From: Polaromonas sp.
GTDB lineage: Bacteria; Pseudomonadota; Gammaproteobacteria; Burkholderiales; Burkholderiaceae_C
NCBI GenBank assembly: GCA_021731285.1
Contig: JAKFXR010000049.1
Location: forward strand, 1-57,763
Direction of reading: 5' to 3'
DNA: 57,763 nt
Part shown: positions 37,607-41,498 of the stretch, piece after piece
Layout: each line of letters starts with the position of its first letter
How positions within the stretch are numbered: position 1 is the stretch's first letter
The notes under the pieces: model-generated
What the model was told of the DNA's origin: nothing
The model's input: only the letters and a program-made list of their open reading frames with translations
Database searches by the model: none
Translations under genes and position numbers: made by a program

Positions 37607-39343
37607 ATGAAACCATCGTTCAACTGGGGCCAGCGCCTGCCTTCATTGCCCGTTTTGCAGTGGGGCCGCGCTTACAACCGTGAGACGTTGCTCAGCGATG
37701 CTGTGGCTGCGCTCATCGTCACCATCATGTTGATTCCCCAGAGTCTGGCCTACGCCATGCTCGCGGGCTTGCCCCCCGAAGTGGGCCTGTACGCCAGCGT
37801 GGCGCCGCTGTTGCTCTATGCAGTGTTCGGTACCAGCCGTGTGCTGGCCGTGGGGCCGGTGGCAGTGGTCTCGCTCATGACGGCGGCGGCGATCGGTCAG
37901 CACGCCGTGGCTGGCACACCGCAGTATTGGGCGGTAGCCATCACACTGGCCTTTCTTTCGGGCCTGCTGTTGCTGGCCATGGGACTGCTGCGCCTGGGTT
38001 TCCTCGCCAACTTCCTCAGCCACCCCGTCATCTCTGGCTTCATCTCGGCATCGGGCATCCTGATCGCAGCCAGCCAGCTCAAGACGCTGATGGGGGTCAA
38101 GGCTGAAGGGCACAACTTTGTCGATCTGAGCCTGTCGCTGTTGTCGCAGCTCGGTCAGGTGCACCTTCTCACCCTGACCATCGGCGTGGTCACGGTTGCC
38201 TTCCTGTTCTGGGTGCGCAGTGGACTCAAGCCACTCCTGCAACGCCTCGGCATGGCGCCGCGCGCGGCCGACGTGGTGGCCAAGACCGGGCCGGTGGCGG
38301 CGATTGCCGTGACCACGCTGCTGACCTGGGGCCTGGACTGGCAGGCGCAGGGCGTGAAGATCGTGGGGGCGGTGCCCCAGGGCCTGCCGCCGTTCACGCT
38401 GCCTCTGTGGGATCTCGGCCTGTGGCAACAACTGCTGGTGCCGGCGCTGCTCATCAGCGTGGTCGGTTTCGTCGAGTCGGTGTCGGTGGGACAGACCCTG
38501 GCAGCCAAACGGCGCCAGCGCATCGAACCCGACCAGGAGCTGGTGGCCCTCGGCTCGAGCAATCTCTCGGCCGCATTCACGGGCGGCTTCCCGGTCACGG
38601 GTGGCTTTGCCCGCTCGGTGGTCAATTTCGACGCCGGCGCGCAGACACCGGCAGCCGGCGTGTTCACCGCCCTCGGCATCACGCTGGCCTCGCTGTTCCT
38701 CACCCCGGCGCTGTACTACCTGCCGCAGGCCACGCTGGCCGCCACCATCGTGGTGGCGGTCCTGTCGCTGGTGGACCTCAGCATTCTGCGCAAGACCTGG
38801 CATTACGCCAGATCCGACTTCATGGCGGTATTGGCCACACTGGTGGCCACGCTCACAGTGGGAGTGGAAACCGGGCTGGTCGTGGGCGTGGGCGTGTCGT
38901 TGGCGTTGTACCTCTACCGCACGAGCCGCCCTCACATGGCCGAGGTCGGGCTGGTCGCGGGGACCGAACACTTCCGCAATGTGCAGCGTCACGCCGTGGT
39001 GGTGAGTCCGCGGGTCCTGAGCCTGCGGGTTGACGAGAGCCTGTATTTCGCCAATTCACGGGCACTGGAAGACCGCATCAACAATGCCGTTGCCGACCGC
39101 GCCGCACTGGAACATGTGGTGCTGCAGTGCTCGGCCATCAACGACATTGATGCCAGCGCCCTGGAAAGCCTGGAAGCCATCGACCTGCGCTTGCGTGGAG
39201 CTGGCGTGCGGCTGCACCTGTCCGAGGTCAAAGGGCCAGTGATGGATCGCCTCAAAAGCACCGAATTCCTGCACGGCCTCAGCGGAAAAGTGTTCCTCAC
39301 CCACTACCAGGCCATTCGCGACCTCTCTCCTGAAGTCACTTGA
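37607..39343 (+). CDS. SulP family anion transporter with STAS domain
   Basis: 578-aa inner-membrane transporter. The SulP core begins with LLSDAVAALIVTIMLIPQSLAYAMLAGLPPEVGLYAS and continues with GPVAVVSLMTA, SHPVISGFISASG and FTGGFPVTGGFARSVVNF. A cytosolic STAS domain (about residues 450-560) with NDIDASALESLEAID ends the protein. Relatives carry sulfate or other anions. As last gene of the BigR operon it may export sulfite/sulfate formed by persulfide oxidation, an inference from position. Its stop codon lies within the first hairpin of the glmS-tail repeat array. Confidence 0.92.
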   Translation: MKPSFNWGQRLPSLPVLQWGRAYNRETLLSDAVAALIVTIMLIPQSLAYAMLAGLPPEVGLYASVAPLLLYAVFGTSRVLAVGPVAVVSLMTAAAIGQHAVAGTPQYWAVAITLAFLSGLLLLAMGLLRLGFLANFLSHPVISGFISASGILIAASQLKTLMGVKAEGHNFVDLSLSLLSQLGQVHLLTLTIGVVTVAFLFWVRSGLKPLLQRLGMAPRAADVVAKTGPVAAIAVTTLLTWGLDWQAQGVKIVGAVPQGLPPFTLPLWDLGLWQQLLVPALLISVVGFVESVSVGQTLAAKRRQRIEPDQELVALGSSNLSAAFTGGFPVTGGFARSVVNFDAGAQTPAAGVFTALGITLASLFLTPALYYLPQATLAATIVVAVLSLVDLSILRKTWHYARSDFMAVLATLVATLTVGVETGLVVGVGVSLALYLYRTSRPHMAEVGLVAGTEHFRNVQRHAVVVSPRVLSLRVDESLYFANSRALEDRINNAVADRAALEHVVLQCSAINDIDASALESLEAIDLRLRGAGVRLHLSEVKGPVMDRLKSTEFLHGLSGKVFLTHYQAIRDLSPEVT

Positions 39344-39406
39344 CTTCGCTACGCGAAGTGAGCGTCAAGCAAGCCTTGCAGCAGCGAACGATGCGTGCCA
39401 TGCCCG

Positions 39407-39445
39407 TCATTCGACAGTCACACTCTTTGCAAGGTTGCGGAGTGT
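39407..39445 (-). pseudogene. glmS 3'-end remnant B
   Basis: Read on the minus strand it gives [12 protein letters not shown] and a stop, the C-terminus of GlmS in frame. Of the ten codons [10 protein letters not shown], six differ from the real glmS and all six changes are synonymous. Upstream residues VRWPH are unrelated to glmS but shared with remnant C. Confidence 0.8.
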
Positions 39446-39516
39446 GTGCGGCCACCTAACTTGCTGCGCAAGTGAGTGCCCTCCAAACCACGACGCGTGC
39501 ATAAGCACGCTGACCG

Positions 39517-39555
39517 TCATTCGACGGTCACTGACTTCGCCAGGTTTCGCGGTTT
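39517..39555 (-). pseudogene. glmS 3'-end remnant C
   Basis: Read on the minus strand it gives [12 protein letters not shown] and a stop, exactly the GlmS C-terminus. Eight of the twelve codons differ from the real gene, all synonymously. Upstream residues VTWPH match the corresponding part of remnant B, not glmS. It lies 134 bases beyond the true glmS stop. Confidence 0.82.
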
Positions 39556-39650
39556 GTGTGGCCACGTAACTTCGCTGCGCGAAGTAAGTGTCCCCCAAGC
39601 CGAAACCTTTCGGCTCCGCCGAGCGGCATTGCATGCCGCGTCCAAGTCAG

Positions 39651-41498
39651 TCACTCGACAGTGACTGACTTGGCGAGGTTTCTGGGCTTGTCAACATCGG
39701 TGCCGCGGGCGCAGGCTGTGTGATACGCCAGCAGCTGCAGTGGAACCACATGCAGCAGGGGGCTGAGCGCACCGTAGTTCTCCGGCATGCGGATGACGTG
39801 AATGCCTTCGGCGCTTTCTATTTTGGTGTCGGCATCGGCCAGCACGTACAACACGCCGCCGCGTGCGCGGACCTCCTGCAGGTTGCTCTTGAGCTTTTCC
39901 AGCAGGCTGTCGTTGGGCGCCACGGTCACCACCGGCATCGCACTCGTCACCAGCGCCAGCGGGCCGTGCTTGAGCTCTCCGGCCGGGTAGGCCTCGGCGT
40001 GGATGTAGCTGATCTCCTTGAGCTTGAGGGCGCCTTCCATCGCGATCGGGTAGTGCATGCCACGTCCGAGGAACAGTGCGTTTTCCATTTTTGCAAAGTC
40101 TTCCGACCAGCTGATGAGCTGGGGCTCCAGCGCCAGCACGCCGCGCAGGGCCGCTGGCAAATGGCGCATGGCCTTGATGTGCGCCGCTTCGTCTTCGTCG
40201 CTCAAGCGTCCTTTGCTCTGGGCCAGCGCCAAGGTCAACAAAAACAGGCCCGCAAGCTGCGTGGTGAAGGCCTTGGTGGACGCCACGCCGATCTCGACAC
40301 CCGCGCGGGTGATGTAGGCCAGCTCGCACTCGCGCACCATGGCCGAGGTGGAGACATTGCAAATGGTCAGGGTGTGCTTCATGCCCAGCGACTGTGCGTG
40401 GCGCAGCGCCGCAAGCGTGTCTGCGGTTTCGCCACTCTGGGTGATGGTGACAATCAGCGTCTTCGGGTTGGGTACCGATGTACGGTAGCGGTATTCGCTG
40501 GCCACCTCGACCTGGGTCGGGATGCCGGCAATACCCTCCAGCCAGTATTTGGCGGTGCAGCCGCTGTAATAGCTGGTGCCGCAGGCCAGGATCAGGACCG
40601 AGTCAATGTCCTTGAAAACGCGGTGCGCCTTGTCGCCAAACAGCTCGGGAACAATGCCTTCCACGCCTTCGAGCGTGTCGGCAATCGCACGCGGCTGCTC
40701 GAAGATCTCTTTTTGCATGTAGTGGCGGTAAGGGCCCAGCTCTGCCGCGCCACTGTGGGCCTGCACGGTCTTGACCTCACGCTCGACCCGCTTGTGGTCG
40801 CGGTCAATCACCCAGTACTTGCCCAGCTGGATGTCCACCAGGTCGCCCTCCTCGAGGTACAGGATCTGGTCGGTCACGCCGGCCAGGGCCATGGCATCGC
40901 TGGCCAGAAAAACTTCGCCGCCCTGCTTGCCCACACCCAGGATCAGTGGCGAGCCGGCACGTGCGCCCACCACCCGGTGCGGCTCGTCCTTGCAGAACGC
41001 CGCAATGGCGTAGGCGCCATGCAACTGCTTTGTGGTCGCCTTCAGGGCCTCAAAAATATCGCCGTCGTACAGGCTGTCCATCAGATGCACGATGACCTCG
41101 GTATCGGTCTGGCTGGTAAACACATAGCCCTTGGCCTGCAATGCGCTGCGCAACTCGTCGTGGTTTTCAATGATGCCGTTGTGCACCAACGCCACCTTGC
41201 CGGGTTTTTGTGCCGCAGCTCCCGTGCCGTGGCTGAAATGAGGGTGGGCGTTGTGCACGGCAGGCGCGCCGTGTGTTGCCCAGCGTGTGTGGGCAATGCC
41301 GGTGCCGCTTTCCAGTTTGTCGCTGCTGACCTGTTCCATCAGTTCTGCCACACGGGAGGTGCTGCGTGCCCGCTTGAGACCGCCGTCGTAGATAGCGACC
41401 CCGCAAGAGTCGTAGCCCCGGTACTCCAGCCTTTGCAGGCCCTGCACCAGGATGGGAACAATATTTCGCGTGGAAACTGACGCAACAATGCCGCACAT
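39651..41498 (-). CDS. glmS: Glutamine--fructose-6-phosphate aminotransferase (GlmS)
   Basis: Cytosolic enzyme making glucosamine-6-phosphate from fructose-6-phosphate and glutamine, the entry to peptidoglycan and LPS amino sugars. MCGIVAS at the start supplies the N-terminal Cys nucleophile of the glutaminase domain ([17 protein letters not shown]). Two SIS domains follow ([49 protein letters not shown]). The C-terminus is [12 protein letters not shown], the region used by Tn7-type elements as target. It has 615 aa and AGGAG seven bases upstream of the ATG. No glmS ribozyme or glmUS linkage is seen. glmU lies 1.8 kb away. Confidence 0.96.

Follow-up and report, generated by a model that had tools for sequence, protein, structure and literature searches.

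The stretch of DNA analysed here (the window) comprises 57,763 nucleotides of a Polaromonas sp. genome (assembly GCA_021731285.1, contig JAKFXR010000049.1; G000 in our own labelling of genomes), and its feature of interest is an array of small repeated units at the 3′ end of the glmS gene. The glmS coding sequence (615 aa; open reading frame call, TIGR01135) lies on the reverse strand at 39651-41498 and ends in the tail AGA AAC CTC GCC AAG TCA GTC ACT GTC GAG TGA, and a convergent sulP-type transporter gene on the forward strand (37607-39343; TIGR00815 sulP) forms the distal flank of the array. Between the two genes, two further copies of the tail (39517-39549 and 39407-39439) encode the same 10-residue C-terminus as glmS, with six of the ten codons changed in each. 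The original prediction, made from the sequence alone, had given the coordinates and reading of these copies beyond the glmS stop correctly, and its count of eight different codons out of 12 holds for the 39517 copy once the K and P codons are included. A degenerate 24-nt motif for AKSVTVE plus stop, with one change allowed, matches three times in the window and not once in 40 first-order Markov windows. Elsewhere in the same genome, BLAST with the array gave only short matches of 15-32 bases.

Anatomy and folding of the units

The repeated units exceed the tail copies by which the array had been described, and each runs in the order gene tail, inverted copy of the tail (spacer) and bulged hairpin (HP2). 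The newest, unit 1 (39550-39683, 134 nt), takes in the last 11 codons of glmS (39651-39683) as its tail, followed by the inverted-repeat spacer and HP2 at 39551-39601. Unit 2 (39440-39549, 110 nt) consists of the displaced tail at 39517-39549, a spacer and HP2 at 39441-39489. A third unit, its hairpin truncated at the sulP end, seems to be headed by the outermost tail (39407-39439); this probable unit 3 (39343-39439) holds the tail, a spacer and a partial HP2-like hairpin. All three lie on the reverse strand. The hairpins behind the covariance models R1 (HP2) and R2 (wider) were picked by hand and include the window's own, so that the models find their like, and their E-values apply to single genomes; HP2 of unit 1, itself in the training set, scores 74.5 bits against R1, HP2 of unit 2 scores 47.3 bits, and the hairpin remnant of unit 3 gives a weak match (39335-39366, 31.4 bits, model positions 10-41). 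Units were sorted by eye into types T1, T2 and T3 by tail and spacer, which combine with two HP2 forms; units 1 and 2 are of types T2 and T3. The VxWPH stretch that had been noted upstream of the shared tail as foreign to glmS turns out to be the right arm of HP2.

The tail and the opening part of the spacer form inverted repeats of each other, with one stem spanning the stop codon (in unit 1 a perfect 14-nt inverted repeat around the glmS stop, 39642-39673) and an outer stem in which the K-P-R-N-L codons pair with the matching spacer stretch; because these two stems enclose one or two small hairpins, the fold is cloverleaf-like. The right end of HP2 at glmS is usually ACAARCC, and the same motif precedes the junction in glmS; among 16 Polaromonas units, the flanking AARCC copies have the same R base in six and a different one in seven, and three do not allow the comparison. 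DNA folding gave z-scores of -7.7 for unit 1 (39550-39689) and -4.9 for unit 2 (39440-39555), against -0.6 for a coding control; the outermost truncated unit folds weakly (z -1.4, with 21 of 200 shuffles folding equally well), and the piece L199 from our survey reached -3.7. Across 16 aligned 51-nt HP2 hairpins, 92.0% of the cells are paired and six pairs are doubly changed (0 of 500 shuffles), while the statistic for further pair types was matched by 101 of 500 shuffles; this alignment uses 16 of the 17 hairpins of the 51-nt set (the decayed, non-folding G002_1 was omitted) and none of the other 24 among 41 distinct hairpins. A hand-picked set of 15 hairpins from the genes glmS, acs and metK is 97.1% paired with 18 double-changed cells (0 of 500 shuffles); pairs with two-sided change were matched by 22 of 500 shuffles and further pair types by 369. 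The recurrent hairpins with compensatory stem changes that had been proposed are real, and their stems covary.

Tail and spacer also match one another within units. Among 27 glmS-attached units (22 of 49 were dropped: 20 not attached to glmS, G251, which was masked, and G460, near-identical to G250), pairing of a spacer with its own tail beats pairing with the tails of other units in both the outer arm (9.59 versus 6.77) and the inner arm (8.19 versus 5.90), with 0 of 20,000 permutations reaching either value. Measured against the next displaced tail in 42 units, after removal of the G460, G216 and G251 units and of pairs with identical tails, the own tail wins 32 times, loses seven times and ties three times. 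Judged from these pairings, tail and spacer are shown to be one predicted folded module, and since spacers fit their own tails, the synonymous changes of a tail go along with the imported fold. The idea that the inverted arms guide a unit towards the displaced tail was rejected, as the arms fit the own tail better.

Strong folds that take in coding codons and the stop, together with hairpin covariation, speak for a functional structured 3′ untranslated region (acting in RNA stability, termination or regulation) that duplicates and is kept by selection, with the tail copies as a by-product. We regard this explanation as improbable: 52 of 68 relatives have no array, many of the displaced tails still read as intact coding ends whose codon choices are foreign, and at acs a terminator-like hairpin with a T run stands downstream of arrays and of single-tail genes alike.

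Nested units at glmS in Polaromonas and beyond

Homologues of glmS were found in 76 of 87 Polaromonas genomes, and the downstream side was read at 70 loci; one, in G005, has no tail on its contig, which leaves 69 loci in 68 genomes. The motif behind the tail counts tolerates up to six changes, and many of the genomes are metagenome assemblies. One or two extra glmS tails occur within 900 nt in 16 of the 68 genomes, with adjacent tails 109-142 nt apart, and the units of 109-163 nt are too short to hold a gene. Among the 23 extra copies, 15 encode the exact glmS C-terminal peptide and the other eight carry amino-acid changes, which bears out the proposal that the copies come from other functional glmS ends and are not decayed local duplicates. 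The gene-side junction falls at one codon boundary in all 16 Polaromonas glmS arrays. A near counterpart of the window's array exists in G017, which has the same unit order by our own typing and, after the outermost tail, sequence similar to the window's sulP, with a different hairpin form in its top unit; the arrangement is thus shared in part with a relative, as one of the counter-tests set for the original prediction had envisaged.

Evidence for insertion comes from a nested series between glmS and phnA (the latter named by eye). In G090 only one tail is present and phnA follows 2 nt later; that tail is preceded by one unit in G004, by two in G026 and by three in G033, where one of the units contains a 12-kb Tn7-like island. 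The glmS bodies of G090, G004 and G026 show 89-98% identity in every window from -1500 to the junction, and those of G090, G004, G070 and G026 are about 95% identical (91-95% over the last 150 nt), with tails that are unlike and whole units apart. The phnA gene is about 95% identical among G090, G004, G026 and G033, and the glmS of G033 is more distant (about 91% in the body, 81-83% at -150 to -60). The displaced tail of G070 equals the glmS tail of G004 letter for letter. As the tails differ by whole units while bodies and phnA are alike, units seem to enter between the P codon and the R codon, to bring a new end and to displace the old one. Stacking orders seen, typed by eye, are T1 over T2, T2 over T3, T3 over T1 and T3 over T2. 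Spacer identity can exceed identity at third codon positions of the host genes, with 96% versus 63% for G068 and G075 and 92% versus 68% for G017 and G004.

These alignments show what appears to be precise insertion, in which a new tail is supplied and the old one displaced; the restoring of the coding end with displacement of the old one, seen by genome comparison, is the behaviour of an integrative element at a gene 3′ end. On balance we favour a reading in which the array consists of stacked mobile units, small (about 85-160 nt) and non-coding, which enter the last codons of a housekeeping gene and heal it, and the units look like an undescribed kind of tiny mobile DNA. A unit bears its own copy of the gene's last codons at its front; genome comparison shows the gene body joined to this new tail, which keeps the protein intact, and further units placed between the gene and the old tail, so that the newest adjoins the gene and the oldest lies outermost. 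Mobility itself is what we infer here, together with a recombinase provided in trans that would recognise the folded, probably single-stranded unit and recombine it at a matching gene end.

Similar arrays occur beyond the genus. A family-wide search over 399 genomes, drawn from a larger group, found matches in at least 154, mostly plain glmS ends; of 16 matching genomes that were read, 13 have two or more core copies (G381, G216, G424, G446, G251, G295, G359, G386, G250, G460, G182, G145 and G334). In several non-Polaromonas arrays the displaced copies retain only AKSVTVE and the stop. Among 80 named glmS loci, 78 of which were parsed, five have a core match within 700 nt, one of which (L236) looks like chance, and further core matches lie beyond 700 nt at L222 and L245. 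G334 (C1:3355953-3356671) carries near-identical 137-nt glmS-tail units in tandem, whose displaced tails mostly encode the exact 10-residue peptide; this array is a recent expansion, and it follows that plain tandem copying happens too. Tandem duplication, the other counter-test, is found in G334, and the window is not explained in that way: an origin as a simple tandem repeat (variable-number tandem repeat, VNTR) fits glmS of G334, acs of G068 and hrpA of G033, not the window or the nested series. A side observation concerns G381 (C1:174000-181500, L190), where 4 kb separate the third glmS tail from the fourth and encode two TPR proteins, one of them with a Trans_reg_C domain.

Similar hairpins at acs, metK and hrpA

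At E 0.001 or better, R1 matched 26 of the 87 Polaromonas genomes, in part through a dispersed hairpin repeat. The stronger matches away from glmS lie at the 3′ ends of acs (G004, G090, G068, G089, G017 and G079) and metK (G072), and family models confirm the gene names (acs of G068, TIGR02188; metK of G072, TIGR01034). Among 13 selected acs ends, five have three tails (G004, G090, G033, G017, G068), four have two (G089, G079, G074, G064) and four have a single one (G070, G026, G061, G000). All three tails in G004 and in G090 encode NPAILDQLSENL followed by the stop, with differing codons, and in G068 the three tails are identical. Behind the outermost acs tail stands a terminator-like hairpin with a T run, as there does behind single-tail acs, and the outermost stop in G004 and G090 is TAA, as in the single-tail genes of G070 and G026. 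The acs unit of G004 forms a similar cloverleaf and then HP2 from unrelated sequence (fold z -5.1), and the piece L342, which is mostly acs coding sequence, gave -3.7. With R2, 62 of the 399 family genomes have matches at E 1e-6; of 26 loci read, 16 have an acs body (11 with a second tail by motif, three of them weakly), five are glmS tails, one is metK by eye (G332), and the remaining four have no gene name or are the dispersed repeat. Matches at about 43-48 bits are mostly the dispersed hairpin repeat without gene tails. One predicted hairpin form is in this way shown to be common to the tails of unrelated genes.

Another hairpin type occupies the second spacer of several acs arrays and is found behind hrpA too (HrpA by family search). 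There, the gene ends in KAWLQLVG plus stop twice and then in an older KAWTQINS (G033) or KAWAQINS (G090), and in G089 in KAWLQLVG once followed by KAWEQTNS; the unit period is 86 nt. The hrpA-type hairpin is present behind a long-chain acyl-CoA ligase gene as well. Outside Polaromonas it was found in none of 399 genomes of the order (G000 included), in a weak search that scored at most two candidates per genome. This second hairpin of the hrpA/acs type is also located close to guaB (named by eye) at L409, L410 and L412 (G017, G066 and G026), with no obvious copy of a gene tail. In the window's own genome, acs has a single tail, then a stretch resembling part of the G068 acs unit, then a terminator-like hairpin (G000:C55:16750-16908, L418); the stretch is possibly a truncated unit. 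Separately, a dispersed, hairpin-rich repeat of about 150 nt with the core GTTTGCTCACTTCGC-GCA-GCGAAGTTACGCAAACACC resembles HP2; it matches the window's genome in full or in part at 21 places, the glmS array itself among them (others are at C92:16529-16668 and C31:23176-23324), and G032 at many.

The main rival to mobile units is out-of-register homologous recombination, in which array DNA would come from relatives through crossovers in the gene end and a tail copy, the first arrays having arisen by tandem duplication at hairpins. The tails offer 33-40 bp of homology, tandem duplicates are seen, divergence in many units is similar to that of their host genes, and in glmS of G033 the last 150 nt have diverged further (81-83% at -150 to -60) than the body. 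Such exchange must nevertheless account for gene bodies that are not imported, neither at glmS in G090, G004, G070 and G026 nor at acs, where none was seen in the last 350 nt, for a gene-side junction held at a constant codon boundary in the 16 Polaromonas glmS arrays, and for similar hairpins at unrelated genes; we consider it rather unlikely, and the more serious of the alternatives.

Several observations weigh against the reading as mobile, gene-healing units. The array is absent within 900 nt in 52 of 68 Polaromonas genomes, displaced-side junctions have a few extra bases in G032, G095 and G072, certain unit pairs are no more similar than their host genes, and plain tandem duplication is found at G334 glmS, G068 acs and G033 hrpA. 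For the outer arm, the own tail takes or shares first place in only 13 of 27 units, and for the inner arm in 19 of 27; with the 16 Polaromonas units alone, the inner arm still gives 0 of 20,000 permutations and the outer arm a weaker 27 of 20,000, and seven of 42 spacers pair better with a displaced tail. The acs stops do not sort into a native TAA and a unit TGA, as the middle tail of G004 ends in TAA and the outermost tails of G033 and G017 in TGA. The analysis turned up neither a recombinase nor a circular form nor an autonomous parent, though integrases were not searched for genome-wide. Two exact IUPAC patterns for units gave 0 and 0 matches in viral contigs; phages gave 0, as did the window array itself as query, and in plasmids each of the matches listed (20 of 37 records) covers only the glmS-tail part of the query.

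Islands, mobilisers and known systems

The original prediction had read the array as a stack of scars left by glmS-targeting islands whose cargo was lost, or as an integration hotspot. The locus is indeed an island hotspot: at ten glmS-attached tails, Tn7-like ends are found 16-24 nt beyond the stop, and at four displaced tails (G068, G033, G070 and G032) ends of the same family are found 22-27 nt beyond it. On the far side, HP2 and further glmS tails are present in G033, in G032 (97 kb from glmS, with a decayed tail), in G075 (about 4.5 kb from glmS and before sulP, with decayed tails) and, on a separate contig, in G079. A Tn7-like island behind glmS in G079 (C72; L151:8442-15707) carries Wadjet-type defence genes (JetD, SbcC-like ATPase, DUF4194/MksE, DUF3375). 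To our knowledge, Tn7 neither copies nor replaces the glmS end. In the passages of the Tn7 literature drawn on here, TnsD needs no more as target than the last 36 bp of glmS, to which it binds, and insertion falls about 20-25 bp downstream (PMC2918618); the unit tail covers these 36 bp. Every glmS tail copy would thus constitute a complete putative TnsD-type site, which is probably why Tn7-like islands stand behind displaced tails, at the distance to be expected.

Although the ends near attached and displaced tails and the islands held by the hotspot, one with Wadjet genes, favour scars of Tn7-like or other glmS-targeting islands, we set lost-cargo scars aside as very improbable. The units are complete and small, of nearly constant length and without cargo; similar ones sit at two genes that are no Tn7 targets, acs and metK, so that the array is not confined to glmS, and hrpA has another hairpin. 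The G033 island has matching ends and its own 5-bp duplication (GCACT) within a unit, which marks the Tn7-like islands inside arrays as separate insertions. They are passengers of the arrays.

If the mobile-unit reading holds, housekeeping genes across a large family of common bacteria have their last codons replaced again and again by selfish DNA well below the usual size of an insertion sequence, and hairpin recombination sites would have a route by which to join the 3′ ends of chromosomal genes. It would explain several Tn7 landing sites at some glmS genes, and synonymous codon choice at gene ends could be set by imported DNA structure. It would also be a warning that C-terminal codons may have their own history, as at hrpA, where the last residues differ (KAWLQLVG versus KAWTQINS).

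Among the open-licence papers listed in literature searches, no title or abstract dealt with glmS-tail arrays, attTn7-site arrays or tail-swapping hairpins, and Rfam gave two weak matches only, far below gathering scores. At the unit borders, inspection by eye revealed neither terminal repeats nor a 5-bp target duplication, and the unit ends are not inverted repeats, which sets the units apart from miniature inverted-repeat transposable elements (MITEs). A beta-proteobacterial repeat element (BRE), GC-rich and 75-91 bp long, also occurs in tandem in numbers that vary between strains, is reported to be mostly intergenic and was counted in Polaromonas, Delftia and Bordetella; the passages of that account used here make no mention of gene-tail copies, replacement or a fold (Hot et al., 2011, PMC3110155). 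In repeat size and tandem habit BRE resembles our units, whose period at hrpA is 86 nt, in a comparison based on the description in those passages.

Repetitive extragenic palindromic (REP) elements are palindromic and dispersed, and are moved in trans by a REP-associated tyrosine transposase (RAYT). A Y1 transposase domain occurs in 84 of the 87 Polaromonas genomes (67 of these with a single match), with or without arrays; the RAYT gene, typically of about 240 aa, is flanked by GTCCCCAATT / ATCTGACCCC repeats. RAYT was rejected as mobiliser of the units: at ten loci fetched, with the gene caught in seven, the flanks carry this different repeat and not HP2.

Integron attC arrays share with our units the bulged imperfect palindromes, the conservation of structure over sequence and the addition of new units at one fixed end. 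They differ in that RYYYAAC...GTTRRRY boxes are found in 0 of 49 glmS units, there is no open reading frame cassette, and a unit carries the tail of a resident gene. The attachment of hairpin sites to gene 3′ ends is also needed for the birth of integron gene cassettes, a step that is poorly understood. Phage and island integrases that act at gene 3′ ends bring in DNA that restores the gene end and displaces the old one, and serial insertions stack; gene healing and stacking are alike in our units, which are gene-less and only 85-160 nt long. As one hairpin chassis occurs with glmS, acs and metK tails, such a class would be modular and retargeted to unrelated genes. We therefore put forward, as a tentative proposal held with somewhat less conviction than the reading of the array itself, a new class of gene-less mobile DNA of 85-160 nt, built of a cloverleaf and a bulged hairpin, that would swap tails at a fixed codon boundary near the 3′ end of conserved genes, one set of nucleotides serving both as coding sequence and as mobility structure, and behave much like an integron array, with a housekeeping gene in the place of attI.

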